From assembly GCA_963575745.1 (NCBI GenBank), contig CAUYUJ010000759.1, forward strand, positions 45,744-109,743: DNA of 64,000 nt, in the 5' to 3' direction. The position numbers and the translations under genes were made by a program. The notes under the pieces are model-generated. The model was given only the letters and a program-made list of their open reading frames with translations. It was not told the DNA's origin and ran no database searches. Origin of the DNA: Prorocentrum cordatum. Its lineage: Eukaryota > Sar > Dinophyceae > Prorocentrales > Prorocentraceae. Positions 5,088 through 52,362 of this stretch are shown piece by piece (positions within the stretch are counted from its first letter, which is position 1; each line of letters opens with the position of its first letter).

Positions 5088-5168
5088 CTTGGTCTGCTAG
5101 CCGAGCAAGGTCTGCCAACCTATTTGTACTATTTGAGGCATCTTCACAGATGCTTCCGGTTTTCTGTA

Positions 5169-7941: not shown

Positions 7942-8828
7942 CTGGGCGCCGGCGGTAAACCGTCAACCTTGGTTACCGCCGGGGGACTCGTAGAGCTTCC
8001 TAGATCGCCTTAAGTTGAGAAAACCGACAGCACCTACCAAGATTCTGACTTGAAGTGAAAATTTGTTGACCTCTGAATGCGACAGGCGGACGCGTATGAT
8101 GTCTACGAATCGACTTCTGTCATTACCAGCCCTGCAGCCCCCCTAGAGCCCGAGTTATGTGCAGAGAACCGACAGCACCTCTGAGAACGACTCGAACAAT
8201 ACGAATAGTTTTGCGGACCTAGTTCGGGCAGCAGACCGAGTTCAGAGCTCTGGACTCGACAGGCAGACGCGCCTGATGTCTTCAAATCGATTCCTGTGAC
8301 CACCGGCGCTTTAGCCCGCCTCAGCGCAAGTTGAGTAAAGAAAACCGAGAGCACTTCTCAAGCTGACTCGGCCAATACGAATAGTTTCGTGATTGTAGAT
8401 CGGGCAGCAGACCGAGTTCAGAGCTCTGAATTCGACAGACAGACGCCACTGATGATTCTGAATCGGTTTCCGTTATCAGATCTGTAGCTGTCCTACAGCT
8501 CGAGTTAAGTACAGAAAACCGAGAGTTCCTGTCAAGATGACTTGAATAATACGAATAGGTTTGCGGACCTTGCTCGGCTAGCAGACCGAGTTCAGGCCTC
8601 TGGATTCAACAGGCAACCGCGCCTGTTTATTCTACATCGATTAGCTGTGCTTACCAGCTCTGTAGCTGTCCTAGAGATCGAGTTATGTTCAGAAAACCGC
8701 CAGCGCGCATCAAGATGACTCAAAACGAACGATCCCGCCACAGTGCTTTTCGACAGTAATATTCATCCGATCGAGCTGAGATCAAGATGGCGAGCGGGAA
8801 TAAGATCGAATATCACGGGAAAAAATAT
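7942..8828 (+). mobile_element. T-family element T5, 3' truncated
   Basis: Has the normal 5' hairpin and monomers, and runs into the conserved 3' block (CCCGATCGAGCTGAG near 8768). It is cut at GGGAAAAAATATA by the 5' hairpin of T6. Confidence 0.7.
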
Positions 8829-10436
8829 AGGCGCCGGCGGTAAACCGTCAACCTTTCTTACCGCCGGGACTCGTAGAGCTTCCTGACAACATATAATGTA
8901 AATACACTGAAAAGATGGCTTTTCCAGCCCAAGCAATTTCAAATCTCTCGGATGCAACAGCCGAAGGCCTTATATGCTTCTGGAATGTTCACAGATAGCC
9001 TCGTGGGCTACGTAGGGTTGTTAGAGAAGGAGCCGGCTGGTGCGCGTACGCCGCCGCACCCTTCCGTCTACCGCTCCACGTGACCTTCCGTGAGGGTTCG
9101 GGTTCCGCAGCGTGTCCCGGGGCGTCTGTTTCAATACGTTCCCGTAGAACGTGCACCAGAGGCCTCGCGAACGTGCCCAGAGGCCTCGCGAAGCTTCCCC
9201 GGCAACGAGCGCCCACGCGTGCAGGCACGCGTGGAAGCGTCGCTCTCTGCCCTTCAGGGGCGCTTCAGGTGAGCTCTCCACCGCCACCACGCACGTTTGC
9301 TGCGCTTCAGGAGCGCTTCAGGCGAGCTGTCCACCGCCACCACGCACGTTTGCAAGTAGCTTTTGCAGCGCTTCAGAAGCTGGCACCTCTGCGCACGTCC
9401 AAGACGTGCACCCGGCCATGCGCACGCAGCGTGTGGGGCAGGCGAGCCCAGAGGCACGCGCGGCGCCAGGGGCACGGTCCAGGCCGCTGGCGCGACGAGA
9501 CCCGTGCGCGCGCGTCTCTCACTTGGCTATCCGGGCTTTGGAGAACATCAGGTCTTCTGCACGAGCTCTGTAGCTCTCCTATAGCAGCCCGAGTTTCGTG
9601 CGTAAATCGACAGCACCTCTCAAGATGACTCGAACAATACAAACAGTTTCGCAAACCTAGTTCGAGTATCGCGCCGAGATCAGACCTCTGCATGCCACAG
9701 GCGGACGCGTCTAATGTCTGTCAATCGATTCCTGTGATTACCAGCCCTGCAGCCCCCCTACAGCCCGAGTTTCGTGCAGGAAACCAACAGCACCTCTCAA
9801 CATTACTTGAACCATGCGAATAGTTTTGCGGACCTAGTTCGTGCAGCGGACAGAGGTCGGAGCTCTGGATTCGGAAGACGGGCGCGTCTGATGTTTCAAT
9901 CGAGTCCAGTGATTGGCAGCCATGCAGCCCCTACAACCGAGTCAAGTGCAGAGAACTGACAGCATCTTTCAAGATCACTCGAACGATACGAATAATTTGG
10001 CGATTCTAGATTAGGCAGCAGATCGATTTCAGAGCTCTGGATTCAACAGACAACGGCCACTGATGATTCGGAATCATATTCTGTACATATCAGCTATGTA
10101 GCTGTCCTGCAGCTCGAGTTAGGTACAGAAAACGGAGAGCGTCTGTCAAGATGACTCGAATAATACGAATAGGTTTGCGGACCTAGCTCGGCTAGCAGAC
10201 CGAGTTCAGACCTCTGGGTTCAACAGGCGAACGCGCCTGATCATTCTGAATCCATGAACTGTGCTGACCAGCTCTGTAGCTGCCTAACGAATTGTTGAAT
10301 TTTGAGAACAAAATTTTCAAGCGACCGAAAGGCACCAGAAGGTCCGTCGAGATTTTTCTTGCGAACTAGCTCTCCAGCGCCCCGGAATTACTCGTAGCGT
10401 CCAGCAATAACTTCTTAGTGGAAGCTATGCGAGTTA
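8829..10436 (+). mobile_element. T-family element T6 with nested C2
   Basis: 5' hairpin with a damaged start (GGCGCCGG), monomers, and a 3' tip TCCAGCAATAACTT..GCGAGTTA. A stretch of the conserved 3' block is missing near 10284, so an internal deletion or a T5/T6 recombination is likely. C2 is inserted at 8988-9552. Confidence 0.65.
8988..9552 (-). mobile_element. C-family element C2 (variant, nested in T6)
   Basis: 565 bp, inverted. Flanks CTTCTGGAATG and TCTTCTGCACGAG rejoin to match an uninterrupted T copy near 46855, so there is no target duplication. The ends carry GATAGCC and GGCTATC, complementary to each other but different from the GATAGCT/GCTATC version, so they covary. Contains a ~50-bp direct duplication at 9252-9300 and 9305-9352. 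The frames reading through this GC-rich DNA are not credible genes. Confidence 0.65.
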
Positions 10437-10871: not shown

Positions 10872-13156
10872 CTGGGCGCCGGCGGTAAACCGTCAACCCT
10901 TGTTACCGCCGGGGGACTCGTAGAGCTTCCTGACAACATATACTGTCGGAAAAAATTGCAGAGAACTAATAGTTTTTCAGCCCAGCTCGAGTATCAGACC
11001 GAGTTCAAACCTCTGAATGCGACAGACGGACGCGTCTGATGTCGCCGAATCGATTACTGTGATTACCCTCCCTGCAGCCTCCCTACAGCCCGAATTGAGC
11101 GCAGAACGCCAAGAGTAGCTCTCAAGATGACTGGAAGAATACGAACAGTTTCGTGATTCTGGATCGCGCAACAGACCGAGTTCAGAGCTCTGGATTCAAC
11201 AGGCGAACGCGCCTGATGATTCTGAGTGCGGTAGGCGTGCTTACCAGCACTGTAGCTGCCCTACAGCTCGAGTTAAGTAGAAAATACCGACAACGCGTAT
11301 CAAGTTGACTCGAATAATACGAATAGGTTTGCGGACCTAGCTCGGCTAGTAGACCGAGTTTAGACCTATGGATTCAACAGGCGAACGCGTCTGCTCATTC
11401 TGAGTGCGATAGGAGTGCTTACCAGCACTGTGGCTGTCCTACAGCTCGAGTTAAGTAGAAAATGCCGACAACGCGTATAAAGTTGACTCGAATAATACAA
11501 ACAGGTTTGCGGACCTAGCTCGGCTGACAGACCGAGTTCAGACCTCTGGGTTCAACAGGCGAACGCGCCTGATCATTCTGCATGCGTTAGCTGTGCTTAC
11601 CAGCTCTGTAGCTGCCCTAGAGCTCGAGTTACGTTCAGAAAACCGTAAGCGCATATCAAGATGACTCGAAACGGCCGATCCCGCCAGAGTGCTTTTTGCC
11701 TTCAAAGTTACCCGATCGAGCTGAGATCAAGATGAAGAGCGGGAATAAGATCGAATATCACGGGAAAAAATACTAGAGCTCTAACGAATGTTCAAATTTC
11801 GAGAACGAAATTTTCAACTGAGCAAAAGTCACCAAAAGTTCCGTCGAGATTTTTCTTGCCAACTAGCTCTCCAGCGCGCCGGAACTGGACGCCGGCGGTA
11901 AACCGTCAACCTTAGTTACCGCCGGGAGACTCGTAGAGCTTCCAGCTCGACTGAAGTTGAGAACACCGAGGACCTACCAACATTCCGACTCTTGGTAAAT
12001 ATTTTGTGTCCTCTCAATGCGACAGGCGGACGCGTCTGATGTCTGCGAGTCGATTTCTATCATCACCAGCCCTGCAGCCCCCCTACAGCCCGAGTTCAGT
12101 GCAGAAAACTGACAGCACCTCTCAGGATGACTCCAACAATACAGTAGTTTCGCAGACCTAATTCGGGCAGCAGACGAGTTCCGAGCTCTGGTCTCCGCAG
12201 GCGGATGCGCCTGATGTCTCTAAATCGATTGCTGTCCCCAGCAGCACTGTAGCCTCCCCCCAGCACGAAATACCGACAGCACTTCTCAGGATGATTCGAA
12301 CAATACGAATAGTTTTCCGAACCTAGCTCGGACAGCAGACCAAGTTCAGTGCTCTCGAGTCAACGAACAAAGGCGTCTGGTGATTTCCAATAGATTTCTG
12401 TGACTACGAGCTCCGTAGCTGCCCTACGGCTCGAGTTAATTAAATACAGAAAACCGAGTGCGCCTATCAAGATGGCCCAAATAATACGAATAGGTTTGCG
12501 GACCTAGCTCGGCTAGCAGACCGACTTCAGACCTCTAGATTTAATAGGCGAACGCGCCTAATGATTCTGACTGCGATAGGTGTGTTTGCCAGCTCTGTAG
12601 CTGTCTTACAGCTCGAGTTAAGACCAGAAAACCGAGAGTTTCTGTCAAGATGACTTCGATAGTACGAACAGGTTTGCGGACCTAGCTCGGCTCACAGACC
12701 GAGTTCAGACCTCTGGGTTGAACAGGCGAACGCGCCTGATCATTCTGAATGCATTAGCTGTGCTTACCAGCTCTGTAGCTGCCCTAGAGCTCGAGTTATG
12801 TTCAGAAAACCGGCAGCGCGTATCAAGATGACTCGAAACGGGCGGGCGTTCCCGCCACAGTGCTTTTTAGCCTTCAAAGTTACCCGATCGAGCTGAGATC
12901 AAGATGGCGAGCGGGAATAAGATCGAATATCACGGGAAAAAATACTAGAGCTCTAACGAATGGTCAAATTTCGAGAACAAAATTTTCAACCGAGCAAAAG
13001 TCAGCAAAAGTTCCGTCGAGATTTTTCTTGCCAACTAGCTCTCCAGCGCTTCGGAAATTACTCTAAAGCTTCCAGCAATAACTTGCTAGGGGAAGCTCTA
13101 CGAGTTATTACTCTTAGCTTCCAGTTATAACTAGCTAAGGGAAGCTCTACGAGTTA
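10872..13156 (+). mobile_element. T-family element T7 with nested T8
   Basis: Own sequence is 10872-11884 plus 13108-13156 (1062 bp). The break at GCCGGAA|TTACTCTTAGC rejoins perfectly and is an A|T target. Ends GAGTTA. Confidence 0.85.
11885..13107 (+). mobile_element. T-family element T8 (complete, nested in T7)
   Basis: 1223 bp, starting CTGGACGCCGG after an A and ending GGAAGCTCTACGAGTTA. Contains the conserved 3' block near 12885. Confidence 0.85.
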
Positions 13157-14593
13157 CTGGGCGCCGGCGGTAAACCGTCAACCTTGGTTACCGCCGGGGA
13201 ACTCGTAGAGCTTCCAAGCTGAGAAAACCGAGAGCACCTACCAACATTCTGACTGATAGTGAATATTGTTGAACCTCTGAATGCGACAAGCGGACGCGTC
13301 TCATCAGACCGAGTTCAGACCTCTGAATGCGACAGGCGGGCGCGTCTGATATCTGCGAATCCACTCATGTGATTACCAGCCCTGCAGCCCCCCTACAGCC
13401 CGAGTTAAGTGCAGGAAACCGACAGCATCTCTCAGGATAACTCGAATAATATAATAGTTTCGCAGACCTGTTTCCAGCAGTAGACCAAGTTCTGAGCTCG
13501 CGAATCGACCAACGAACGCGCCTGATGTGTGCAAAAATTGATTTCTATGACCCGCAGCACTGTAGCCCTCCCGCAGCACGAGTTCAGTGCAGAAAATTGA
13601 GAGTAATGTTCACGATGATTCGACGAATAGTTTCGCGAACCAAGCTCGCACAGCAGGCCGAGTTCAGAGCTCTCGATACAACAGACAAAAGCGCCCGATA
13701 ATTCTCAATCGATTTATGTGGCTCTAGGCTCTCTAGCTGCCTACAGCTCGAGTAAAGTACAGAAAATACCGAGAGCGTTTGTGAAGATGACTCGAATAAT
13801 AAGAATAGATTTGCGGACCTAGCTCGGCTAGCAGACCGAGTTCAGACCTCTGGAGTCAAAAGGCGAACGCGTCTGATGATTCTGAGTGCGATAGCTGTGC
13901 TTACCAGCACTGTAGCTGCCCTGTAGCTCGGATTAAGTACAAAATACCCACCACGCGTATCAAGTTGAATCGAATAATACGAATAGGTTTGCGGACCTAG
14001 CTCGGCTAGCAGACCGAATTGGGATCTATGGATTCAACAGGCAAACGCGCCTAATGATTCTGAGTGCAATAGGTGTGCTTACTAGCACTGTAGCTGCCCC
14101 ACAGCTCGAGCTAAGTAGAAAATACCGACAACGCGTATTAAGTTGACTCGAATAATACGAATAGGTTTGCGGACCTAGCTCGGCTAGCAGAGCGAGTTCA
14201 GACCTCTGGATTCAACAGGCGAACGCGCCTGATGATTCTGAGTGCGATAGCTGTGCTTACCAGCTCTCTAGCTGTCCTACAGCTGGAGTTAAGTACAAAA
14301 TAACGACAACGCGTATTAAGATGACTCGAAACGGCCGTTCCCGCCAGTGTGCTTTTTGGCAGTAAAAGGTACCCGATCGAGCTGAGATCAAGATGGCGAG
14401 CGGGAATAAGATCGAATATCACGGGAAAAAATACTAGAGCTCAAACGAATTGTTGAATTTCGAGAACATAATTTTCAACCGACCAAAAGTTGTGAAAAGT
14501 TCAGTTTTTTTTTTCGAGCCAACTAGCTCTGCGGCGAGCCGGAATTACTCTTAGCTTCCAGCTATAAATAGCTAAGGGAAGCTCTACGAGTTA
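13157..14593 (+). mobile_element. T-family element T9 (complete)
   Basis: 1437 bp, with more monomers than T7. It begins immediately after the terminal A of T7 and ends GAGTTA at the point where C3 resumes, so it looks inserted exactly at the 3' end of T7. Its tip stem is AGCTA..TAGCT. Confidence 0.85.
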
Positions 14594-15670: not shown

Positions 15671-15745
15671 TTCATCATCATCGTCATCATCCCCATCATC
15701 GTCATCGTCATCATCATCTGTCGTCATCATCATTATCACCACCCA
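15671..15745. repeat. TCA trinucleotide microsatellite
   Basis: Interrupted TCATCATCGTCATCATCC array directly before the minisatellite. Confidence 0.9.
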
Positions 15746-16770
15746 TGTCGGCACACCCCTCACACGTTTCGTGACCCCATAGGGAGCTCCACCGAAGGTC
15801 CCAGTGCGTGTGCCCGCATGCGTCCCGCACACTCATTTCGGCACACCCCTCACACGCTTCGTGGCCCCATAGGGAGCTCCACCGAAGGTCCCAGTGGGTG
15901 TGCCCGCATGCGTCCCGCACACCCATTTCGGCACACCCCTCATACGTTTCGTGGCCCCATAGGGACAAGGTCCCACCGCATGCAGGCACACCCTCACACG
16001 TTTCGTGGCCCCATAGGGAGCTCCACCGAAGGTCCCAGTGGGTGTGCCCGCATGCGTCCCGCACACCCATTTCGGCACACCCTCACACGTTTCGTGGCCC
16101 CATAGGGAGCTCCACCGAAGGTCCCAGTGGGTGTGCCCGCATGCGTCCCGCACACCCATTTCGGCACACCCCTCACACGTTTCGTGGCCCCATAGGGAGC
16201 TCCACCGAAGGTCCCAGTGGGTGTGCCCGCATGCGTCCCGCACACCCATTTCGGCACACCCCTCACACGTTCGTGGCCCCATAGGGAGCTCCACCGAAGG
16301 TCCCAGTGGGTGTGCCCGCATGCGTCCCGCACACCCATTTCGGCACACCCCTCACACGTTTCGTGGCCCCATAGGGAGCTCCACCGAAGGTCCCCAGTGG
16401 GTGTGCCCGCATGCGTCCCGCACACCCATTTCGGCACACCCCTCACACGTTTCGTGGCCCCATAGGGAGCTCCACCGAAGGTCCCAGTGGGTGTGCCCGC
16501 ATGCGTCCCGCACACCCATTTCGGCACACCCCTCACACGTTTCGTGGCCCCATAGGGAGCTCCACCGAAGGTCCCAGTGGGTGTGCCCGCATGCGTCCCG
16601 CACACCCATTTCGGCACACCCCTCACACGTTTCGTGGCCCCATAGGGAGCTCCATAAGGTCTCAGTGGGTGTGAAGGTCCCCCGCATGCGTCCCGCACAC
16701 CCATTCCGGCACATCCCTCACACGTTTCGTGGCCCCATAGGGAGCTCCACCGAAGGTCCCCGTGGCGCAG
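15746..16770. repeat. 90-bp minisatellite, about 11 units
   Basis: Units contain CACACGTTTCGTGGCCCCAT, AGGGAGCTCCACCGAAGGTC and GCCCGCATGCGTCCCGCACA. Spacing is 89-91 bp. One unit near 15965 has a deletion and the units near 16660-16750 are diverged. 90 is a multiple of three, so all the long frames here (up to 346 codons) are repeat artefacts. Confidence 0.95.
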
Positions 16771-24861: not shown

Positions 24862-27343
24862 CTGGGCGCCGGCGGTAAACCGTCAACCTTTCTTACCGCC
24901 GGGGGACTCGTAGAGCTTCCTGAAAGTATATAGTGTGGGAAAAAATCCAGAGAACGACTAGTTTTCAGCCTAATTTCAGACCTCTCAAGATGACTCTAAC
25001 AAAGAAACAAACAGTTTCGCAACCAAAATCGAGTATCAGGCGGACGTGTCTGATGTCTGCGAATCGACTCATGTGATTACCAGCCCTGCAGGCCCCTCCA
25101 CAGCCCGAGTTGAGTGCAGAAAACCGACAGCACCTCTCAGGATGCCTCGAATAATACAATAGTTTCGCGGACCTGATTCGAGCAGCAGACCAAGTTCTGA
25201 GCTCTCGAATCGACCAACGAACGCGCATGATGTGTACAAATCGATATCTATGACCCGCAGCACAGTAGCCCTCCCCAGCACGAGTTGAGTGCAGAAAATT
25301 CAGAACGCTTTTCACGATGATTCGGACAATACGAATAATTTCGCGAACCTAGCTCGGGCTGCAGGCCGAGTTCAGAGCTCTCGATACAACAGACAAACAC
25401 CCGATAATTCCCAATCGATTTCTGCAGCTGCCCTACAGCTGCCCTACAGCTCAAGTTGAGCTGCCCTACAGCTCGAGTTAAGTACAGAAAACCGAGAGCG
25501 TTTATAAAGCTGACTCGAATAATACGAATAGATGTGCGGAGCTAGCTCGGCTAGCAGACCGAGTTCAGGCCTCTGTAGTCGAGAGACGAACACGCCTGAT
25601 GATTCTGAATGCGATGAATGTGCTTACCAGCTCTGTAGCTGCCCTGCAGCTCGAATTGAATACAAAATACCCACCATGCGTATCAAGTTGACTCGAATAA
25701 TACGAATCGGTTTGCGGACCTAGCTCGGCTAGCAGACCGAGTTCAGACCTATGGATTCAACAAGCGAACGCGCCTGATGATTCTGAGTGCGATAGGTGTG
25801 TTTACCAGCACTGTAGCTGCCCTACAGCTCGAGATAAGTACAAAATACCGACAACGTGTATCAAGTTGACTCCAATAATACGAATAGGTTTGCGGACCTA
25901 GCTCGGCTAGCAGACCGAGTTCAGACCTATGGATTGAACAGGCGAACGCGCCTGATGATTCTGAGTGCGATAGCTGTGCTCACCAGCTCTGTAGCTGCCC
26001 TACAGCTCGAGTTAAGTAGAAAATACCGACAGCGTGTGTCAAGATGACTCGAAACGGCCGTTCCCGCCGGGACGCTTTTTGGCCTTCAAAGTTACCCGAT
26101 CGAGCTGAGATCAAGATGGTGAGCGGGAATAAGATCGAATATCATGGGAAAAGATACTAGAGCTCTAACGAATGGTCAAATTTTGAGAAGAAAATTTTCA
26201 ACCGACCAAAAGTCAGCAAAAGGTCCGTCGAGATTTTTCTTGCCAACTAGCTCTCCAGCGCCCCGGAATTACTGGGCGCCGGCGGTAAACAGTCAACCTT
26301 GGTTACCGCCGGGGGACTCGTGGAGCTTCCTAACTCGACTTAAGTTGAGAAAACAGACAGCACTTACCAAAAATCTCACTTATAGTGAATAATTTTTGAC
26401 CTCTAAATGCGACAGACGGACGCGTCTGATGTCTGCGAATCGACTCCTGTCATTACCAGCCCTGCAGCCACCCTACAGCCCGAATTAAGTGCAGAAACCC
26501 GACAGCACCTCTCAGAATGACTCGAACAATAGGAATAGTTTCGCGGACCTAGTTCGGGCAGCAGACATGCGGACGCGCCTGATGTCTTCAAATCGATCCA
26601 GTGATTACCAGCCATGCAGCCCCCCTACAGCCCGAGTTAAGTCCAGATAACCGACATCATCTCGCAAGCGACTCGAACGATACGAATAGTTTCGCGATTC
26701 TACATCAGGCAGCAGGCCGAGTTCAGAGCTCTGGAGTCGACAAACAAACGTAACTGCTGATTCTGAATTGGTGTCTCTGAATATCAGCTCTGTAGCTGTC
26801 CTACAGCTCGAGTTAAGTGCAGAAAACCGAGCGTTTCTGTCAAAATGACTCGAATAATACGAACAGGTTTGTGACCCTAGCTCGGCTAGCAGACCGAGTT
26901 CAGACCTCTGGATTCAACCGGCGAACGCGCCTGATCAGTCTGCATACATTAGCTGTGCTTATCAGCTCTGTAGCCGTCCTGAAGCTCGAGTTATGTTCAA
27001 AAAACCGACAGCGTGTGTCAAGATGACTCAAAACGGCAAATCCGGTCACAGTGCTTTTCGATAGTAATATTCACCCGATCGAGCTGAGATCAAGATGGCG
27101 AGCGGGAATAAGATCGAATATCACGGGAAAAAATACTAGAGCTCTAACGAATGGTCAAATTTTGAGAACAAAATTTTCAACCGAGCAAAAGTTGTCAAAA
27201 GTTCAGTCGAGATTTTTCGAGCCAACTAGCTGTGGGGCGCGCCGGAATTACTCTTAGCTTCCAGCAATAACTTGCTCAGGGAAGCTCTACGAGTCACTCT
27301 TAAGCTTCCAGCAATAACTTGCTAAGGGAAGCTCTACGAGTTA
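24862..27343 (+). mobile_element. T-family element T14 with nested T15
   Basis: Own sequence is 24862-26271 plus 27297-27343 (1457 bp). The break GGAATTA|CTCTTAAGC rejoins exactly. Inserted in T13, whose flanks GGCCTTCAA (24861) and AGTTACCCG (32401) also rejoin exactly across a block of several elements. Confidence 0.85.
26272..27296 (+). mobile_element. T-family element T15 (complete, nested in T14)
   Basis: 1025 bp, CTGGGCGCC to CTCTACGAGTCA, uninterrupted. Near-identical to T16 at an offset of 1084 bp, and so the uninterrupted reference for the nested insertions in T16. Confidence 0.9.
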
Positions 27344-28257
27344 TGAGCTCTACGACTGGGCGCCGGCGGTAAACCGTCAACCTTGGTTACCGCCGGGGGA
27401 CTCGTAGAGCTTCCTAACTCGACTTAAGTTGAGAAAACAGACAGCACTTACCAAAAATCTCACTTATAGTGAATATTTTTTGACCTCTAAATGCGACAGA
27501 CGGACGCGTCTGATGTCTGCGAATCGACTCCTGTCATTACCAGCCCTGCAGCCACCCTACAGCCCGAATTAAGTGCAGAAACCCGACAGCACCTCTCAGA
27601 ATGACTCGAACAATAGGAATAGTTTCGCGGACCTAGTTCGGGCAGCAGACATGCGGACGCGCCTGATGTCTTCAAATCGATCCAGTGATTACGAGCCATG
27701 CAGCCCCCCTACAGCCCGAGTTAAGTCCAGATAACCGACATCATCTCGCAAGCGACTCGAACGATACGAATAGTTTCGCGATTCTACATCAGGCAGCAGG
27801 CCGAGTTCAGAGCTCTGGAGTCGACAAACAAACGTAACTGCTGATTCTGAACTGGTGTCTCTGAATATCAGCTCTGTAGCTGTTCTACAGCTCGAGTTAA
27901 GTGCAGAAAACCGAGCGTTTCTGTCAAAATGACTCGAATAATACGAACAGGTTTGTGACCCGAGCTCGGCTAGCAGACCGAGTTCAGACCTCTGGATTCA
28001 ACCGGCGAACGCGCCTGATCAGTCTGCATACATTAGCTGTGCTTATCAGCTCTGTAGCCGTCCTGAAGCTCGAGTTATGTTCAAAAAACCGTCAACGCAG
28101 ATCAAGATGACTCAAAACGGCAAATCCGGTCACAGTGCTTTTCGATAGTAATATTCACCCGATCGAGCTGAGATCGAGATGGCGAGCGGGAATAAGATCG
28201 AATATCACGGGAAAAAATACTAGAGCTCTAACGAATGGTGAAATTTTGAGAACAAAA

Positions 28258-29551
28258 CTGGGCGCCGGCGGTAAACCGTCAACCTTTCTTACCGCCGGGG
28301 GACTCGTAGAGCTTCCTGAAAATACAAGAAGTGTGGGAAAAAACTCCAAAGAACGACTAGTTTTTCAGCCCAAGCGATTTCAGATCTCTCAAGATAACGC
28401 TAATAAAAACCAACCGGTTTCGCAACCCAGTTCGAGTATCAAACCGAGTTCAGACCTCTGAATGCGACAGGCGGCCGCGTCTGATGTCTGCGAATCCAGT
28501 CATGTGATTCCCAGCGCTGCAGCCCCCCTACAGCCCGAGTTAAGTGCAGAAAACCGACAGTATCGACTCGAATAATAGAATAGTTTTGCGGACCTAGTTC
28601 GAGCAGCAGACCGAGTTCCGAGCTCTGGAATCGACCGACAAACGCGCCTGATGTGTTCAAATCGATATGTGTGACCCGCAGCACTGTAGCCGGCCCCAAA
28701 CACGAGTTAAGTGCAGAAAACCGAGAGCACTTCTCAAGATGACTCGCACAATACGAATAGTTTCGCGAACCTAGCTCGGGCAGCAGACCGAGTTCAGAGC
28801 TCTTGGTTCAGTAGACGAACGCGGCTGATGATTTCCCATCGATGTCTGTGACAATGAGCCCTGTAGCTGCCCTACAGCTCGAGTTAAGTACAGAAAATCG
28901 AGAGCGTCTGTCAAGATGACTAGAATAATACGAATAGGTTTCCGGAGCTAGCTCGGCTAGCAGACCGAGTTCAGACCTATGGATTCAACAGACGAATGCG
29001 CCTGATGATTCTGAGGACGATAGATGTGCTTACCAGCACTGTGGCTGCCCTAAAGCTCGAGTTGAGTAGAGAATACCGACAAGACGTATGAAGTTCACTC
29101 GAATAATAGGAATAGGTTTGCGGACCTAGCTCGGCTAGCAGACCGAGTTGAGACCTCTGGATTCAACAGGCGAACGCGCCTGATGATTCTGAGTGCAATA
29201 GCTGTGCTTACCAGCACTGTAGCTGCCCTACAGCTCGAGTTAAGTATAAAATAAAATACCGACAACGCGTATCAAGATGACTCGAAACAGCCGTTCCCGC
29301 CTGCCTGCTTTTTGGCCTTCAAAGTTACCCGATCGAGCTGAGATCAAGATGGCGAGCGGGAATAAGATCGAATATCATAAGAAAAAATACTAGAGCTCAA
29401 ACGAATTGTCAAATTTCGAGAACAAAATTTTCCACCGACCACAAGTCACCAAAAGGTCCGTCGAGATTTTTGTTGCCAACTAGCTCTCCAGCTCCCCGGA
29501 ATTACTCTTAAGCTTCCAGCAATAACTTGCTAAGGGAAGCTCTACGAGTTA
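28258..29551 (+). mobile_element. T-family element T17 (complete, nested in T16)
   Basis: 1294 bp, CTGGGCGCC to GAGTTA, inserted between A and T. Conserved 3' block near 29327. Confidence 0.9.
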
Positions 29552-29648
29552 TTTTCAACCGAGCAAAAGTTGTCAAAAGTTCAGTCGAGATTTTTCGAGC
29601 CAACTAGCTGTGGGGCGCGCCGGAATTACTCTTAGCTTCCAGCAATAA

Positions 29649-30710
29649 CTGGGCGCCGGCGGTAAACCGTCAACCTTTGTTACCGCCGGGGGACTCGTAG
29701 AGCTTCCTGACAACATATACTGTCGAAAAAAAATTGCAGAGAACGAATAGTTTTTCAGCCCGAGTCGAGTATCAGACTCAGTGCAGACCTCTGAATGCAA
29801 CAGACGCACGCGTCTGATGTTTTTCCATCGATTCCTGTGATTACCCGCTGCAGCCTCTCTACAGCCCGAATGAAGTGCAGAACGCCGACAGTAGCTCTCA
29901 AGATGACTAGAAGAATACGAACAGTTTCGTGATTCTGGATCGCGCAACAGACCGAGTTCAGAGCTCTCGATTCAAAAGGCAAGCGCGCCTGATGATTCCG
30001 AGTGCGGTAGCTGTGCTTACCAGCACTGTAGCTGCCCTACAGCTCGAGTTAAGTGGAAAATATCGACAACGCGCATCAAGTTGACTCGAATAATACGAAT
30101 AGGTTTGCGGACCTAGCTCGGCTAGCAGACCGAGTTCAGACCTATGGATTCAACGGGCGAACGCGTCTGATGATTCTGAGTGCGATGGGAGTGCTTACCA
30201 ACACTGGAGCTGTCCTACAGCTCGAGTTAAGTAGAAATTACCGACAACGCGTATCAAGTTGACTCGAATAATACGAATAGGTTTGCGGACCTAGCTCGGC
30301 TAGCAGACCGAGTTCAGACCTCTGGGTTGAACAGGCGAACGCGCCTGATCATTCTGCATGGATTAGCTGTGTTCGCCAGCTCTGTAGCTGCCCTAGAGCT
30401 CGAGTTATGTTCAGAAAACCGTCAGCGCATATCAAGATGACTCAAAACGGCCGATCCCGCCACTGTGCTTTTCGATAGTAATATTCACCCGATCGAGCTG
30501 AGATCAAGATGGAGAGCGGGAATAAGATCGAATATCACGGGAAAAAATACTAGAGCTCTAACGAATTGTCAAATTTTGAGAACCAAATTTTCAACCGAGC
30601 AAAAGTCACCAAAAGTTCCGTCGAGATTTTTCTTGCCGACTAGCTCTCCAGCGCGCCGGAATTACTCTTAGCTTCCAGCTATAACTAGCTAAGGGAAGCT
30701 CTACGAGTTA
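29649..30710 (+). mobile_element. T-family element T18 (complete, nested in T16)
   Basis: 1062 bp, CTGGGCGCC to GAGTTA, inserted in the loop of the T16 3' hairpin between A and C. Tip stem of the AGCTA..TAGCT type. Confidence 0.9.
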
Positions 30711-30736
30711 CTTGCTCAGGGAAGCTCTACGAGTCA

Positions 30737-30780
30737 AGTTCCCGGCGGTAACCAGGTTGACGGTTCACCGCCGGCGCCAG
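30737..30780 (-). mobile_element. Solo inverted G-family 5' hairpin
   Basis: Reverse complement of the G start, ending GGCGCCAG and followed by T at 30781. No G body is attached. It lies between T16 and T19. Confidence 0.75.
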
Positions 30781-30782
30781 TA

Positions 30783-32400
30783 CTGGGCGCCGGCGGTAAA
30801 CCGTCAACCTTTCTTACCGCCGGGGGACTCGTAGAGCTTCCTGACAGTATATAGAGTGGGAAATAATCCAGAGAACGACTAGTTTCCATGACTCTAACAA
30901 AAAAACAAACAGTTTCGCAATCCAGTTCGTATCAGACCGAGTTCAGACCTCGCAATGCGACAGGCGGACGCGTCTGATGTCTGCGAATCGACTCATGTGA
31001 TTACCAGCCCTGCAGCCCCCGACAGCCCGAGTTAAGTGCAGAAACCGAGAGCATCTCTCAGAATGACTCGAATAATACAATTGTTTCGCGAATCTGTTTC
31101 GAGCAGCAAATCAAGTTCTGAGCTTTCGAATCGTCCAACGAACGCGTCTGATGTGTGCAAATCGATTTCTATGACCCGCAGCACTGTAGCCCTCCCCCAG
31201 CACGAGTTGAGTGCAGAAAATTGAGAGCACGTTGCACGATGATTCGGAGAATACGAATAGTTTCGCGAAGCTAGCTCGGGCAGCAGGCCGAGTTCAGAGC
31301 TCTCGATACAACAGACAAACGCGCCCGATGATTCCCAATCGATTTATGTGACTATAGGCTCTGTAACTGCCCTAAAGCTCGAGTTAAGTACAGAAAACCG
31401 AGAGCGTTTGTCAAGATGACTCGAATAATACGAATAGGTTTGCGGACCTAGCCCAGCTAGCAGACCGAGTTTAGACCTATGGATTTAACAGGCGAACGCG
31501 CCTGACGATTCTGAGTGCGATAGGTGTGCTTACCAGCACTGTAGCTGCCCTAGACCTCGAGTTAAGCAGAAAATACCGACAACGCGTATCAAGTTGACTC
31601 GAATAATACGAATAGGTTTGCGGACCTAGCTCGGCTAGCAGACCGAGTTCAGACCTCTGGATTCAACAGGCGAACGCGCCTGATGATTCTGAGTGCGATA
31701 GGTGTGCTTACCAGCACTGTAGCTGCCCTAGACCTCGAGTTAAGCAGAAAATACCGACAACGCGTATCAAGTTGACTCGAATAATACGAATAGGTTTGCG
31801 GACCTAGCTCGGCTAGCAGACCGAGTTCAGACCTCTGGATTCAACAGGCGAACGCGCCTGATGATTCTGAGTGCGATAGGTGTGCTTACCAGCACTGTAG
31901 CTGCCCTACAGCTCGAGTTAAGTAGAAAATACCGACAACGCGTATCAAGTTGACTCGAATAATACGAATAGATTTGCGGACCTAGCTCGGGTAGCAGACC
32001 GAGTTCAGACCTCTGGATTGAACAGGCGAACGCGCCTGATGATTCTGAGTGCGATAGCTGTGCTTACAGGCACTGTAGCTGCCCTACAGCTCGAGTTAAG
32101 TTGAAAATACCGACAGCCCGTAGCAAGATGACTCGAAACGGCCGTTCCCGCCACCGTGCTTTTTGGCCTTCAAAGTTACCCGATCGAGCTGAGATCAAGA
32201 TGGCGAGCGGGAATAAGATCGAATATCACGGGAAAAAATACTAGAGCTCTAACGAATGTCAAATTTCGAGAACAAAATTTTCAACCGAGCAAAAGTCACC
32301 AAAAGTTCCGTCGAGATTTTTCTTGCCAACTAGCTCTCCAGCGCGCCGGAATTACTCTTAGCTTCCAGCTATAACTAGCTAAGGGAAGCTCTACGAGTTA
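30783..32400 (+). mobile_element. T-family element T19 (complete, long)
   Basis: 1618 bp. The four cleanest monomers are here: the CGAATAATACGAATAG landmark falls at 31422, 31600, 31778 and 31956, exactly 178 bp apart. Ends GAGTTA, after which T13 resumes. Confidence 0.9.
31422..32133 (+). repeat. 178-bp tandem monomers
   Basis: Four consecutive units, period exactly 178 bp, high identity. Each contains potential stems CTCGGCTAGCAGACCGAG and AGGCGAACGCGCCT and a CAGC..ACAGCTC pairing. The same monomer, more degenerate, fills the body of every T copy. Confidence 0.95.
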
Positions 32401-33520: not shown

Positions 33521-33923
33521 CTTGTAAGCGTCCAAAACCCGGATAGCGAAGCCAAGCGCGGAACGCCGCACAGGGACCTCTGCCAGGCCGCCTGAAATGA
33601 TGCGCGGGATGCTGGAAACCTCGCAGGAGACGCTTGTAGGGGGACCGTTTACGATGCGTGCGGTCCTGCAAAGCGCGCAAGGAAAATCTACCTAGGTGCC
33701 TGGAGGAACTGCCGAAGCTCTTTCGAAGCTCTGCCGAAGCGCTTCGCGCACCCTGGAGCCACGCGTATTGGGAAACGCCAGGAAGCCACGCTCCCGGACC
33801 CGCTGCAAGTTCCGACAACCTGCTGCGGGGATCGTGGACCGGCGGAGATGGGCGTGTCCTCCTCACCACCCACAGCCGGCTTCTTCTCTGAAACCCTCAG
33901 CTCTCCAAGGAGCTATCCGGGAA
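33521..33923 (+). mobile_element. C-family element C4 (complete, nested in T20)
   Basis: 403 bp, starting CTTGTAAGCGTCCAAAACCC after an A and ending CAAGGAGCTATCCGGGAA. Defines the C family's limits: 5' CCCGGATAGC is complementary to 3' GCTATCCGGG, and the tip forms a hairpin AGCTCTCC-AA-GGAGCT. Insertion left no target duplication. Confidence 0.85.
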
Positions 33924-33976: not shown

Positions 33977-34372
33977 CTGGCGCCGGCGGTGAACCGTCAA
34001 CCTGGTCACCGCCGGGAACCTCGTAGAGCTCCTCTCACTCGTATGAGTGTAGATTCGACATAGAGTGAAAAAATAGAGATTTTTCGAAAATCATGAAATT
34101 CGATTTTTTCGATGTTCATATTCGCTCAGATTCTGGAAGTCAACTCATGCAAAAATGCATCAAGAGTGCTGAGCTGCTGTCAGATAGCAGTTCATACCCC
34201 AGTGCTCGGCGTAAAAATCTGCTTTCTCAAAATGAATGGTAAAATTTCTTTCAAATTTTCGCAAAACCACCCAAAAGTTGTCACATTGTCCGCCTCGGCC
34301 GGCTGGGCCAACTAGCTCCAGCCCGCGCCGGAATCCTTCTAGCTCATTGATGTCGAAGGACTCTACGAGGTA
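33977..34372 (+). mobile_element. G-family element G4 (complete)
   Basis: 396 bp, CTGGCGCCGGCGGTGAACC to GACTCTACGAGGTA. The hairpin stem shows the GGTGA/TCACC version. The body shares GGCCAACTAGCTCCA with other G copies. Confidence 0.85.
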
Positions 34373-37817: not shown

Positions 37818-40800
37818 TCAAGTAAAGTAAGACTCAAACTCACCAAGCAAACGAACGATGTTGTGTACCGTACACTCTGCTGCGGATAATTCAGCCTGTG
37901 TGACTGTGCTCTCCGACGGAATCAACCATGCTTTTTCCCAGACGAGTTGCCAGGACACGGTCGAAAACTTTCCTTCGATCCTGTCGGACCTGGATATGAA
38001 CGCCGCCTCGAGCCATGCACCACATCCTACTCCATCCTCAGATTTACCGCCATCGAAGGACCCCCTCAATGCGATAGGTGTTATATGTCCATGTGTGTGT
38101 GTCATGCAAAAAGAGCGCTTCCATTCGTGTGATCTGCCCTCGCGGGCATCATGTGTGAGTCGATCCGCATGCTCATTTACTTCCCGAAACTCATGCTTAA
38201 AAGGATCCCTGCCATTCGAAGGTGCCCGAACTCCATAGATCTCCGTCAGACCGCTCATGATGTCAATGATATAGCCTATTCTTTTTCGATACGTGTAGTC
38301 AGTTATCGCCCACCTCCCTAGGAGCCAAGATATGACAAGAAGAGAATCCCCACAGATCTCCACTCCAAAACCATGTGTTTTGAAATCCCATTCTGTTGCT
38401 TTCATGTTTGTTATTGCTAAACGTCTGGCGATGATTTCATTCTGGACCTCCTCCTCCTTCCTCCTTCGTTTACGTGTTGCCTCATTTCCACCCTCCTCTT
38501 CCATATCATACGCAGTACGTCTCCCTCCTGATCCTTTAACATTTGATTGGAACAAGCTGAACTTCTCCTCACCCACCGTAGATATTGCAAACTCTCTCCA
38601 GCTATCAGGCTGGAAATCTCTCCACCACTGATCACCCCAATATTTTTCGAAAGGATAGTGCCATGTATGTAGACCCGTCGCGTCAATCCCTCTTTTCCTT
38701 TTGCGGTAGCTTCCCTCCTCTGACCGTTTTCTTTTTGAGTTATATCTGTGCATGATATCCCCAAAATTCTGCCGCCATTCATCATATCGGATTCCGTATG
38801 CAAGCATTGCCAACCTTGAGTCCCTCCATGCTCTGTCACTCTGCGGCATGTCATGAGGTAGATATTTTGCAAACGACACCACATCCAGTGCAAGCAACCA
38901 CTGACGATACAAGAATTTTTGCACCAGCGACTGATACCCATGATCATGAAAAGCTTTCCTACATCGGCTGTACTTCCGATGTGTATACTCGTCCCACGGC
39001 TCATCAGGAAGATGTCTCGTTCTCAATATTCTGAGCAAGCACTCTCCCTCAAACACATGAAGTCTCTCAATCGAACTTTCATCTGCTGCTACTCCATCTA
39101 ATCCATACAATACTGTCGACTGAACAAGCTGTTGATATCTAGAATACTTTTCCCCCAATGGTATACATCTGCTGGTATAGAACTTGATGTCAACATAGAA
39201 GGCCTGTCTTCCTTTGTCCAATCTGTACGCTACATCCGCATGATATCGAGGAAATATAGCCGGAATACAGACTCCTAGGAGATGAACCTCAGCCCTTCTG
39301 CGAAATCTCAATTCACGTTCTGGGTCCTGAAATCCTTTGATCACCAGGTCCATGGTCGGAACGATGTGTTCATTCTCATCATACTCTAGAGGTTCACCGA
39401 AAACTAAATACTCCAGAGACGCCTCTTTCCATCGCATACTGTATTTCTCAAGTGAGTGTGTCATTGCCAGCATCATCTGAGCCAAATCCGACGCCGAGTT
39501 CGCCAGGACAACGATGTTATCAGCCCATAAGGCATGATTCAAGTAAATCGACACCGTTTCGACGCTCCCGTTTTCGTCCCTCGCACTCGCTCGAAACTCG
39601 ACCCTATACCCCAACTTCTGTTCATCCCATTTCTCGAACAGTTCCCCCCACATCGCCACGGCAATACAATTAAAGGCAAACGGTCCTTCAGGTCCACCCG
39701 TACGTATACAGCGATCCCAGGACACCTTTGAGAACCGCTCGAAGTCGAGATTCTCACACGAGATCTCCACATCACTATAGACCAGGGACTCAATCATCGC
39801 ATGTTGGATAACATATGGTATACTACAATATGCCATGGCAGAACTGAAGTTAGCAACCGTACAATGATCAAAAGCTTGATAAACATCTGCGAGAGCAACA
39901 TGTAATTGATCATCTGCGTGCTGATATTTGCTAGCATGTTGACCTAAGTGTTTCAATGCAGTCGTAATCTCATATGGCCTCCGTCCTTTCACAAATCCAT
40001 ACACACCAAATCTCCGAAACATCCCCACCTCCTCCATATAATCCTCCGCTAACTTGACCACACACATAGAATAAAGTTTAGATAACGCGTTTTGAATACA
40101 CAGTAGTCTCGTTTCCTTTGCATCCGTGGTGTTTTGACTTTTAGGCATCACACTCACTATGATCTCCCTCCAGCAATCAGGGTACGGAATCTGTCTATGA
40201 AATACAGCCTCGAATATCCTTCGCACCTCTCTCAACGTTTTCCACGACAATCGAAGGAGCATCTCTGCAGGCACTCCATCAGTCCCCGTCGCGCGGTTAC
40301 GCTGCATTCTTCCCCTGCAGCAAAGCATATTCGCCAGCGTGATGGTGCATGGTGGAGCCTCCAGCTCCGCAGCCTGTCTGAGAGACTGCAGCACCTCTAG
40401 ATTGGCAACACGAGTCTGGGCACACGACACCTTATTCTTGAGCATCTGCCAGATAACTTTGTTCCATATCTCTCTATCCTCCACTCCTTCCAGGTTATAG
40501 AGACGGTTTCTCTTCCTTTTCCTTGACGGTGGTAATTCATACTCCAAACGAAGACGGCGGTATAGACGGCGATAGCCATTCAAAACTTTTGTGATCTGTT
40601 TTCTTTCTGGCCCAGGTGGGGTTCCCCTACGGAGTTCAATCAACCTCTGGAGTCTATAAGGGCGCACAGGCTGTTTAATACCATTGTCATCTCTTGTCTT
40701 ATATTCCACCTCATCCCGAGTAAAGCTCGATTTGATCTGTCGTGACAAACAGCTGGCCCCCAGAGGATTACCACTTACTGAGGAACACCTGGCATTGTCA

Positions 40801-41756
40801 ACAAACGAGTCCATCGAAGCTCTCGCGATCATCTCATCCGTGAACGTGTTTGGCTCATATCCCACATAGCTTTTATCACGGGGTTTAGCGGAGAAACGGG
40901 GACAATGGACGACAGGGGAACGAACACAAACTTCCAAGAGTTTATGATCACTCAGACGGGATCGCTGAGTCTTCCCTCCTCTATGCAAACGAAAGGATGC
41001 CTTACATTCAATAATTTCCCAACCATGAGGGACCAGAACATAATCTAATACTCGTGGCCGCAGCTCTGGTGCTCTAGCAAGGCGACAGTGTGCTCGCGCG
41101 TAGCTCTCCCACGTCACTGCACGGTCGCCGAAAGTGTTGGCAGCACAGAGCCCGTACGATTGCATAAAGCATTCCAGCGCATGCCTCATCCTCCATCTGT
41201 CGTTCTCCCTCCTCCTCTCCGCCGTGCTGTCGCCTCCTTCCTCCTTTCCATCCACACCACTTCCTGTCATAATATATTCAACTCCTCGATGAACTCCCGT
41301 ACTCCTCCCCACCAATTCCACATTAGCATCCACGCAAACAATGATGCAGGCACCTGGCAGCTTCGTGGCAACCATCTCCCTGAGGACCATATTGAGGTTG
41401 GTCAGGGTTTGCTGCCACATATCAAAAGCATTCGGGATCGAAACATCTGGAAGGTACATGCTGGTGATCACCAGCCTCGAAGTAGCAGTCTTGAAGCCTC
41501 CTACGACGAAACGAGGATACGAGCATACGAATTCTTTGATACAACATTTCCATGCATTGTCGAACACTAGGGCAGCTTTCCCACATGATGAAACTCTCTG
41601 GTCCCATCCTAGACGTGCAATCTCGGCTCTGGGAAGAAAATCACTCTCTTGCAATGCGAACAAGCCTCCGTGACAGCTACGAAGTTGTCCCAAAATCTCA
41701 GCTCCTCTACAGTTTCTCACTCCTGCCTTCTGGATATTCCAAGAAATGATAGTCAC
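37818..41756 (-). CDS. LINE polyprotein: endonuclease, reverse transcriptase, permuted RNase H
   Basis: Uninterrupted frame. The open frame extends upstream to 42266 only through GC-rich and GT-repeat DNA, so I start at GTG/Val (residue 171 of that frame); residue numbers follow the long frame. Endonuclease (EEP fold, target nicking), residues about 171-450: ISWNIQKAG (N177), ALQESD (E207), CVDANVE (D313, N315), SDH (D440, H441), all key residues present. RT, about 650-1000: TGTDGVP (D663), motif [10 protein letters not shown] (D793), motif [11 protein letters not shown] with Glu860 where Gln is usual, motif C LWADN (D916, N917) where ADD is usual. RNase H, about 1295-1482: motifs appear as GDS (D1307), NEHAD (D1368), then SFDGG (D1405) and AELSAAE (E1459), i.e. 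circularly permuted. No stop or frameshift, so the copy is young or selected. Acts on RNA/DNA at the insertion site (target-primed reverse transcription) by family analogy. Confidence 0.9.
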
Positions 41757-41872
41757 GGCTCCATTTCGGGGCCGGCCCTCCCTCCACTCCAACCACTCCG
41801 CCCTCGCGGAGCGCCAAGGAGAAGGGCGGAAGGGGAGGGGGGGGGGGGGCGCGGGCGGCGCCAGCGCCGCGA

Positions 41873-41880
<8 letters not shown>
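41757..41880. repeat. GC-rich unit 3, right part
   Basis: CCATTTCGGGGCCGGCCCTCC, CCGCCCTCGCGGAGCGCC and a G run, as in units 1 and 2, continuing into CA repeats. Completes the unit broken at 37590. Confidence 0.85.
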
Positions 41881-41936
<56 letters not shown>

Positions 41937-41980
41937 CCACAGACACACACACACACACACACACCGCCCACACACACACA

Positions 41981-42018
<38 letters not shown>

Positions 42019-42090
42019 CACACACACACAACACACACACGCACACGCACACACACACAACACAAACACACACATACACACACACACCCT
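41877..42090. repeat. (CA)n microsatellite
   Basis: Nearly pure CA with CG interruptions. Read through by the LINE frame on the minus strand but not part of the LINE. Confidence 0.95.
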
Positions 42091-42210
42091 TCATTCCCTC
42101 TTCGAAACCCAAAACCCCTGCCCAGCCCTGTCCTATCGGCCCGAATGCCAGGCGGACCCCGCCGACCGATCCAGCTCATTCCCCTGCATGTCCACAGCCA
42201 ACCCCCGGCC
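42091..42210. other. Short unique spacer, no gene seen
   Basis: Non-repetitive CT/C-rich sequence between the CA tract and the CACAGA satellite. Confidence 0.4.
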
Positions 42211-45200
42211 CGATGTCCACTGACACACAGACACACAGACACACAGACACACAGACACACAGACACACAGACACACAGTCACATACACACACAGACACAC
42301 TAACACACTGACACACTGACACACAGAAACACAGACACACAGACACACTCACACACGGACACACAGACACACAGGCAACCGGACACACAGATACACAGAC
42401 ACACAGACACACGGACACAAAGAAGACAGAAAAAAACATACACACAAGCACAGGGACACACAGACACACAGACACGCAGACGCACAGACACAGCGACCCA
42501 CAGACACACAGACACACAGGCACACAGACACACGGACACTCAGACACACAGACACACAGACATACAGACACACAGACACAAGGAAAGACAGAAAGACAGA
42601 AAACCAGGCTCAAAGACACACAGACACAGACACACATACACACAGACACACAGACACAGCGACCCACAGACACAGCGACCCACAGACACAGCGACCCACA
42701 GACACACAGACACACAGGCACACAGACACACAGACACAGACACACATACACACAGACACACAGACGAACGGACACACAGACACACAAACACACAGACACA
42801 CAGACACACACAGACTCATAGACACACAGACACGCAGACAAACAAACACACAGACATACAGACATGCAAATACACAAACACACAGACACACAGACACTCA
42901 GGCACACTGACACACACAGCACCAGGCACACAGACACACAGCCACTCAGACACACAGACGCACAGGCACACAGACACACAGACACACAGGCACACGCAGA
43001 CACGCAGAAACACCAACACACAGACACGCAGACACAAGGGAACACAGACACGCAGGCACAAAGCCACACAGACACACAGACACACAGACAAACAGATACA
43101 CAGACACACTGACACACTGACACACAGACACACAGACGCAACCCAAAAAAAAAAAAAACTGACACACAGACACTCAGACACACAGACACACAGACACACA
43201 GACACACGGACACCCAGACACCCAGACACACAGACACGCAGACACACAGACACACAGACACACAGACACACAGACACACAGCCACACAGCCACACAGACA
43301 CACAGACACACAGAGAGACAGAAACACAGGCACATACACACACAGACACACAGACACACAGACACACAGACACACAGACACACAGACACACAGACAAACA
43401 GACAGACAGACAGACAAACACACAGACAGACAGACCGACGGGGCTGCCAGCGCCACGCGCGCACACACAGACACTGACACACACACACGCGCACACACAC
43501 GCAAATACACGCGCACAGACAGACAGACAAGCACACACACACACACAGACGCACAGAAAGACAAACACACAGACAGATCCACAGACAGACAGACACACAG
43601 ACATACTGACATACAGACACGCAGACACACAGACACAAAGACACGCAGACACAAGGATACACAGACACACAGAAAACCAGTCACAAGGACACACAGACAC
43701 CCAGACACGCAGACACTCAGACACACAGACACACGGACACACAAACACACAGACATACAGACACACAGACACGGACACACGGACACACGGACACAAAAGA
43801 CACACGGACATACAGACACACAGACACACAGAAAAGACTGACAGACACACAGACACACAGACACACGGACACACGGACACGCAGACACACAGGCACACAG
43901 ACACACGGACACACACAGGGACACACAGACACACTGACACACAGACACACTGACACACAGACACACAGACACACCACACAATCACATACATAACAGACAC
44001 ACTAACACGCTGACACACTGACACATAGAAACACAGACACACAGACACACTCACACACGGACACACAGACACACAGACACACAGACACACGCACACACGG
44101 ACACAAAGAAAGACAGAAAAAAATAAAACAGACACACAAGCACAGGGACACACAGACACACAGACACGCAGACACACAGACACAGAGACCCACAGACACA
44201 CAGACACACAGACACACAGACACACGGACACTCAGACACACAGACACACAGACATACAGACACACAGACACAAGGAAAGACAGAAAGACAGAAAACCAGG
44301 CTCACAGACACACAGACACACAGACACACATACACACAGACACACAGACAAACGGACACACGGACACACAAACACACAGACACACAGACACACACACACA
44401 GACGCATAGGCAAACAAACACGCAGACAAACAAACACACAGACACAGACACTCAGGCATACTGACACACACAGCACCAGACACACAGACACACAGACACT
44501 CAGACACACAGACACACACACAGACACACAGACACACAGGCACACAGGCACACGCAGAAACGCCAACACAGAGACGCGCAGACACAAGGGCACACAGACA
44601 CGCAGGCACAAAGCCACACAGAGACACAGACACACAGACAAACAGATACACAGACACACGGACACACTGACACACAGACACACAGACGCAAAAAAACACT
44701 GACACACAGACACCTAGACCCACAGACACGCAGACACACAGACACACAGACACACAGACACACAGACACACAGACACACAGCCACACAGACACACAGACA
44801 CACAGAGAGACAGAAACACAGGCACACAGGCACACAGACACACGGAAACACAGACACACAGACACACAGACACACAGACACACAGACACACAGACAACAC
44901 AGACAGACAGACAAAGACACAGACAGACAGACCGACGGGGCTGCCAGCGCCACGCGCGCACACACAGACACTGACACACACACGCGCACACGCACACGCA
45001 AATACACGCGCACAGACAGACAGACAGGCACACACACACAGACGCACAGAAAGGCAGACACACAGACAGATCCACAGACAGACAGACACACAGACATACT
45101 GACATACAGACACGCAGACACACAGACACAAAGACACGCAGAAACAAGGATACACAGACACACAGAAAACCAGTCACAAGGACGCACAGACACCCAGACA

Positions 45201-51709: not shown

Positions 51710-51784
51710 TTAAAAACTCGACCCAAAGTTACCACATTGTCTCTTAATGCCCGGTCGGCCAACTAGCTCCACCCTGCGCCCGAA

Positions 51785-52362
51785 TGGGAGCCGGCGGTAA
51801 ACCGTCAACCAGGTTACCACCGGGAGCCTCGTAGAGCTTTCTTGCGCGGCGCTGCCCACTACACATTCATATTTTTTGTTCAAGATATCGCGAGTTGAGT
51901 ACAGAAAACGGACAACACTCGTCAAAATGACTCGAAGAATACAAATAAGTTTGCGAACCAGCTCGAGCAGCAGACCGAATTCAGAGTTGTAGATCGAACA
52001 GATGAACGCGCCTCATGATTCCCAATTCGTTTCTGTGAGCATCAGCTCTGCAGCTGTCCTATATCCCGAGATAAATACAGAAACCGTTAATGCGCGTCAA
52101 GGACTCGAAACGGCCGTCGGTTCCAGCAAGTGTTTTGATAGTAATATTGCAGCTGCGGACCTGAGAATTTAACTGGCAATCGCGGCATAACCTACTACAC
52201 GTGAGAAAAATATCCGTTCTCAAAACGAATTTTCAAATTTTGCACAAACATTAGAAACTCGACCCAAAGTTAACACATTGTCTCTTAATGCGCGGTCGGC
52301 CAACTAGCTCCACCCTGCGCCCGAATTCCTCTTAGCTCAGCTTCGAAGAGCTCTACGAGGTA
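51785..52362 (+). mobile_element. G-family element G6 (nested in G5)
   Basis: 578 bp, starting TGGGAGCCGGCGG (first C lost) after an A and ending GAGCTCTACGAGGTA. Inserted between A and T of the G5 tip (CGAA|TTCC). Confidence 0.8.

Follow-up and report, generated by a model that had tools for sequence, protein, structure and literature searches.

Self-nested and probably rolling-circle transposons with exact ends in a contig of Prorocentrum cordatum

A 64,000-nucleotide stretch of the dinoflagellate Prorocentrum cordatum (contig CAUYUJ010000759.1, positions 45,744 to 109,743 of the forward strand), here called the window, carries many copies of a repeated element that lie side by side and inside one another. 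How do these elements insert at exact ends, next to one fixed base and apparently with no target-site duplication (TSD), and to which class of transposon do they belong? A preliminary description had proposed the exact ends and the insertion next to A, and had remarked that few eukaryotic transposons behave in this way. Paralogous empty sites and the bases flanking the copies bear out the ends and the A. The remark overlooks the Helitrons, notably Helitron2, Helentrons and HINEs, which have a matching end structure when the elements are read on the minus strand. We conclude that the copies are, with little doubt, non-autonomous Helitron2/Helentron-type (HINE-like) rolling-circle transposons. 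This kind of element is already known; the family itself, its one-T target and its self-nesting may be new.

Element ends, target base and empty sites

The ends are fixed by two near-twin copies. T15 (26272-27296, minus strand) is a complete non-autonomous element of 1025 bp that runs from a Helitron 5′ end at 27296 to a 3′ end at 26272 and interrupts the element at 24862-27343 in the latter's 5′ terminal region; an empty counterpart of its site lies at 4981-5087 (100% identity). T16 (27356-30736, minus strand) has received two later insertions, and removing them (28258-29551 and 29649-30710) leaves 902+97+26 = 1025 bp, identical to T15 at 1010/1025 positions in an ungapped comparison. The lengths agree with those first reported, as do both T16 junctions, which read exactly as in T15. 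The two inserts, T17 (1294 bp, at AAAA|TTTT) and T18 (1062 bp, inside the 5′-terminal hairpin region of T16), are also on the minus strand and have empty sites of their own at 27114-27233 (99%) and 27211-27296 (100%), respectively.

Across the window, we located left-type ends by the hairpin core CCGGCGGT(A/G)AACCGTCAACC, with at most three mismatches, and right-type ends by AGCTCTACGAG. The left end, A|CTGG, is present in 42 copies, 39 on the plus strand and 3 on the minus strand. A precedes the first element base in 39/42 ends (A makes up 28.4% of the window; p about 2e-18), which agrees with the earlier estimate of A before all but a few of about 38 starts. The ends preceded by another base are 7434 and 8827, both with worn first bases, and 7663, where CTGGCG is intact and follows C. 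Of the 21 elements with both ends assigned, all start with T(A/G)(A/C)CTCG on the minus strand and 20 finish in ..CCAG (the remaining one is worn); T is the next host base 3′ of the element in every case. On this Helitron strand the ends are written TAACTCGTAGAGC.. (5′) and ..CGGCGCCCAG (3′). The CTGGG end, taken as the 5′ end in the preliminary description, is the Helitron 3′ end. The right end divides the elements into two families, GAGT(T/C)A (n=15) and GAGG(T/C)A (n=6), which differ in their inverted repeats. Tandem repeats of about 178 bp lie inside copies.

For left–right pairings of the listed ends 41-12,000 bp apart (n=223), we searched the window for paralogous empty sites and obtained a gap-free join over the junction for 29. 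Of these joins, 15 were kept as boundaries of an element or cluster and 14 were set aside, mostly because the right flank is another element's start or follows another copy's end; the set-aside joins also include 27356-30736 (81% match). We then slid the right boundary from -10 to +10 for 19 chosen pairs: the 15 kept, a corrected 51785-52362, 27356-30736, 1388-2405 and 3972-5087. A gap-free empty site was found at zero shift in 16/19, which is not an unbiased rate because the pairs were picked after the first pairing test, and zero was the best shift in 16/16. No gap-free empty site was found within the window for 27356-30736, 1388-2405 or 3972-5087. Several targets also match, less well, at other shifts, above all 59644-58550, which lies in a tandem repeat. 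The right end is followed by C at 8 of the 16 empty sites, by T at 6, by A at 2 and by G at none, and the missing G carries little weight at this sample size; on the Helitron strand, the base before the site is therefore G in 8, A in 6 and T in 2, and the base after it is T. Applied within the window, the check that the preliminary description had proposed, combining empty sites with a tally of flanking bases, yielded clean sites, A on the 5′ flank and no regular duplication of 2-9 bp.

The claim that nothing is duplicated holds for repeats of 2-10 bp in the 19 pairs and keeps a one-base ambiguity. If the element is taken to end in A, a 1-bp flanking repeat is found in 3/19 pairs and none of 2-10 bp; if it is taken to end before the A, there is a 1-bp repeat in 19/19 and a 2-bp repeat in 1/19. 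Both assignments fit the flanks, which makes 'no duplication' formally equal to a '1-bp A duplication' here. A similar one-base end ambiguity is described for Fusarium elements (PMC5148889, seen in extract). The A-to-A flanks of all 19 pairs, with the final A assigned to the target, are what a cut-and-paste transposon with a 1-bp 'A' target duplication would leave. We consider such an element very improbable: the inverted repeats are set asymmetrically, at 1-2 nt from one end and 43-45 nt from the other, and a T-specific target with a fixed terminal base accounts for the A equally well. Even less credible is that segmental duplication or recombination among satellite-like repeats produced apparently clean joins with no transposition. 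Near-identical copies 1197 bp apart (3972/5169/6366) and the many tandem repeats speak for such a process, whereas one end type recurs at 42 places with mostly different flanks, and the 16 empty sites match best at zero shift.

Terminal structure and class of the elements

The assignment to Helitron2/Helentron is by structure, from end features that match published ones and from the ~178-bp repeats. One inverted repeat lies 1-2 nt from the 5′ end and can form a fold with a more internal partner. The inverted copy of this repeat is found 43-45 nt before the 3′ end and is followed directly by a hairpin, whose 10-bp stem stands 6-7 nt from the end. In T15, these are the 5′-terminal hairpin region with the 5′ asymmetric inverted repeat (27242-27296) and the 3′-terminal hairpin (26279-26312; one example of 42), both on the minus strand. 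Such asymmetric terminal inverted repeats are present in 21/21 elements, with 13-17 of 17 positions paired. Pairing within each family averages 15.1 and 14.6 of 17, and between families 12.5 and 10.8, so that pairing is better between 5′ and 3′ copies from one family than across families, as expected of co-changing repeats.

Folding predicts hairpins at both ends, with z-scores of -4.20 and -1.88 for the 5′ folds (one end per family; the second is weak) and -1.83 and -3.16 for the 3′ folds. The 3′ stem was examined further in an alignment of 16 hairpins, in which 10 of the window's 42 ends were combined with the full set of 6 from a second contig, L002, one end of which folds with a z of -3.05. 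Stem cells are paired in 91.3%, compared with 83.1% after shuffling and at most 53.8% when the stem is slid; double-change cells number 13 versus 3.8 in shuffles, and the covariation score is 0.269 versus 0.121 (0/500 shuffles as high for all three measures).

L002 was one of two loci found when genome contigs were scanned with a 20-base hairpin core. The other, L001, shares the 20-mer and has no BLAST match to the window, and we attribute it to chance. L002, which we regard as a real relative, has six such hairpins (4 to 2 by strand) and right-type ends, two of which are followed by TTACTCTT. The loop GGTTGACGGTT is kept in 6/6 of its hairpins, and the stem is altered at two adjacent pairs, with compensation, in 5/6. 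These changes are common to related L002 copies, so few events lie behind them. In Helraiser, according to the extract consulted, a changed loop acted like loss of the hairpin and a swapped stem kept ~90% activity (PMC4778049); a kept loop on a differing stem fits those results by analogy. The public contig (L002 1-5397) is filed under a Nitrospinota metagenome-assembled genome, and its longest listed open reading frame (ORF) has 194 aa; it is likely to be mis-binned eukaryotic DNA. Viral contigs, scanned twice for the 3′ hairpin, yielded no match.

These features match published Helitron2 and Helentron elements, as far as the consulted parts of those descriptions go. In Helitron2, the 5′ repeat lies 0-2 bp from the 5′ T, in a 5′ hairpin, and the 3′ repeat is upstream of the 3′ hairpin (PMC3627910). 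Chlamydomonas Helitron-1_CRe and its relatives likewise have a 5′ T and a hairpin at each end in addition to asymmetric terminal inverted repeats, and the algal Helitron-1N1_CRe copies have no TSD (PMC3627910); unlike the window elements, the Chlamydomonas elements insert between TTTT and T/C, carry the 3′ repeat ~20-30 bp from the end and, in the CRe-1,2,3 families, often have TSDs. HINEs carry repeats about 2-4 and 38-60 nt from their ends, may contain tandem repeats and leave the target unmodified (PMC4067079). HINEs and Helentrons such as Drosophila DINE-1, the mite HINE-Mo and the oyster Cg_HINE resemble the present copies in having subterminal inverted repeats, placed close to the 5′ end and ~40-60 nt before the 3′ end, with an inverted partner at the 5′ end, as well as a palindrome at the 3′ side, tandem repeats in the centre (in oyster, mostly monomers of 160-180 bp; PMC7492417), a T flank and no TSD. 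They differ in their terminal sequences and in a TT or T-rich target where a single T is fixed here, and in mites the 3′ palindrome lies about 8-35 nt from the end rather than 6-7 nt. FoHeli1/2 of Fusarium oxysporum share the asymmetric inverted repeats, two hairpins, the 5′ T and the one-base end ambiguity, and differ in ATTTT ends and a TNAT|T target. Canonical Helitron1 elements and Helraiser have a 3′ hairpin, no TSD and a 3′ flanking T in common with the window copies. We rejected this class: its TC...CTRR ends and mostly A|T target contrast with T(A/G)(A/C)CTCG, ..CCAG and N|T here, and the descriptions give it no 5′ hairpin or asymmetric repeat.

Hairpins are predicted at both ends, and A is the last base of flank and element alike, as might be expected of a different HUH element of the Y1, IS200/IS605-like type, whose cleavage sites end in A and which inserts 3′ of a short target, has subterminal hairpins and leaves no TSD. 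We give this origin only a slim chance. The ~178-bp tandem cargo is a Helitron2/Helentron feature, as is an asymmetric inverted repeat in the Helitron2 position, and we know of no abundant Y1 elements in eukaryotes, which also counts against it.

Several observations weigh against a Helitron2/Helentron origin. A Pfam scan of 12 window ORFs (of 157 stop-to-stop frames of at least 100 aa) revealed no RepHel gene. The target on the Helitron strand is mostly a purine followed by T, not the Helentron TT or the algal Helitron2 TTTT, and insertion into TT or T-rich sequence was not seen at the 16 empty sites. In the part of the source consulted, some algal Fanzor-carrying Helitron2 families make 7-19-bp TSDs (PMC3627910), so that the absence of TSDs is not universal in algal Helitron2. 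Of the five folded ends, two have z above -2. In the 3′ stem, neither double-change pairs (3 versus 2.4 in shuffles; 260/500 as high) nor pair types (8 versus 7.5; 266/500 as high) stand out in number, and a slide of +3 yields 4 double-change pairs and 11 cells. 

An Rfam scan of the window at gathering thresholds returned no match, and among the papers listed on Helitrons in dinoflagellates and protists no title or abstract describes this element family.

On the Helitron2/Helentron reading, a RepHel protein acting in trans would nick at the 5′ T, and the displaced strand would be carried round as a single-stranded or circular intermediate. The 3′ hairpin, together with pairing of the two inverted repeats, would mark the end of the element. 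The single strand would then be joined immediately 5′ of a target T (A on the plus strand) with nothing duplicated.

Insertion into resident copies

The copies are nested far more often than random positions would be, although the counts treat copies as independent. Nine of the 42 left ends (one with a worn first base) lie inside the right-end motif C(G/C)GAATT(A/C)C, at one of two positions, where 0.1 would be expected from the count of such sites among A positions. By BLAST with 28-base flanks, 13/42 insertions fall in the 5′-terminal 58 bp of another copy, compared with 160/5000 random A positions, and 13/13 share the orientation of the copy hit. This strict test misses 11885 and 62813, for which too short a stretch falls within the library. 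With the limit relaxed by three bases, 15/42 insertions are placed, 14 in the same orientation and one (18666) in the opposite one, against 185/5000 random positions (100 same, 85 opposite). We accordingly dropped the idea that nested insertions always take the resident's orientation. Elements also abut another copy's end with zero bases between at 13157, 46696 and 61767.

In the predicted fold, this insertion site, GAGTAA|T on the Helitron strand, falls at the foot of the 5′ hairpin. We tentatively propose that the target is the 5′ hairpin extruded by a resident copy, and that incoming elements land at the hairpin base (GGAA|TTA|CTCTT), within the hairpin or at its exact end, nearly always in the orientation of the resident, resulting in co-oriented nested arrays; we hold this to be possible and somewhat doubtful, slightly more so given the one opposite-orientation case. 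The excess could reflect sequential insertion at an extruded hairpin, joint movement of joined copies or plain sequence preference.

Over the whole window (1-64000), the copies are biased to one strand (39/42; p 5.6e-9). The bias is 37 to 3 without two tandem-duplicate copies and 24 to 3 (p 4.9e-5) after hot-spot and abutting copies are also removed; it could be inherited from nesting or follow the direction of replication or transcription. In 3972-7433, the near-identical element starts are spaced at exactly 1197 bp, as in local tandem duplication, and the third copy is broken near 7434.

Further copies and features of the window

Nine of the ten zero-duplication joins first listed are correct as written; in the tenth, 50695 should be 50685, the element starting at 50686. 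Some joins cover more than a single element. The join 24861/32401 spans several side-by-side elements and is one clean empty site for the cluster 24862-32400 (paralogue 60190-60309, 98%). The first element of this cluster, interrupted by T15 (24862-27343), and its last (30783-32400; 1618 bp) are defined by their ends. Within 27344-30782, T16 appears to have split an isolated 3′ end of some 50 bp that belongs to the GAGG(T/C)A family and lies on the opposite strand. The join 10871/14594 likewise covers a pair (paralogue 33529-33630, 96%): 10872-13156, recognized by its ends and 1062 bp long without its insert, and a 1437-bp element (13157-14593) adjoining its 5′ end directly. That insert, 11885-13107 (1223 bp), sits at CCGGAA|TTACTCTT of its host and has an empty site at 32292-32400 (99%). 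All these assigned elements, and those that follow except where stated, are on the minus strand.

The joins 7941/10437 and 57566/60479 span further ends or copies. The first bounds a 2495-bp element (7942-10436; empty site 34215-34320, 85%) that contains an additional, worn 3′ end at 8827; the second bounds 57567-60478 (empty site 57130-57226, 91%), which encloses a 1095-bp GAGG(T/C)A-family copy (58550-59644) in a 178-bp tandem repeat, with its Helitron strand on plus and an empty site at 11337-11218 (97%). A GAGG(T/C)A-family span at 50213-52399 (empty site 2302-2389, 95%) encloses a 1024-bp element (50686-51709; 52191-52310, 91%) and a 578-bp GAGG(T/C)A-family element with a worn terminal base (51785-52362; 58645-58548, 87%). 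Close by are a 988-bp element in another copy's 5′ terminal region (52430-53417), whose empty site (2360-2453, 79%) is the weakest zero-shift match, and a 302-bp GAGG(T/C)A-family element (53571-53872; 3276-3395, 85%). A 395-bp member of that family lies at 2712-3106 (54491-54593, 86%), and a 1149-bp element at 62813-63961 is inserted at TCCGGAA|TTACTCTTAA (4978-5076, 98%).

Elsewhere, a 1482-aa ORF (37818-42266, minus strand) between long CA/TG microsatellites has a weak reverse transcriptase match (Pfam E 8.9e-06, under Pfam's own cut-off) and is possibly a non-LTR retrotransposon targeting CA/TG repeats; 1260 aa of this LINE-like ORF gave one protein match, 47% identical, among the best 7995 candidates by shared words that were scored. 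Together with the element class and the repeats, this ORF points to a eukaryotic host. The other ORFs of the 12 scanned with Pfam gave nothing or weak matches under the cut-offs, and a solved-structure search with one ORF reached a best E of 0.56. A 90-bp tandem array of about 11 units occupies 15740-16765 in two blocks, with 94-96% matches.

With many exact empty sites in one contig, the window is a natural record of rolling-circle insertion, in which a conserved loop stands on interchangeable stems and insertions are concentrated in the resident's terminal hairpin region. If hairpin targeting is true, the choice of target and orientation by a single-stranded transposon would become testable.

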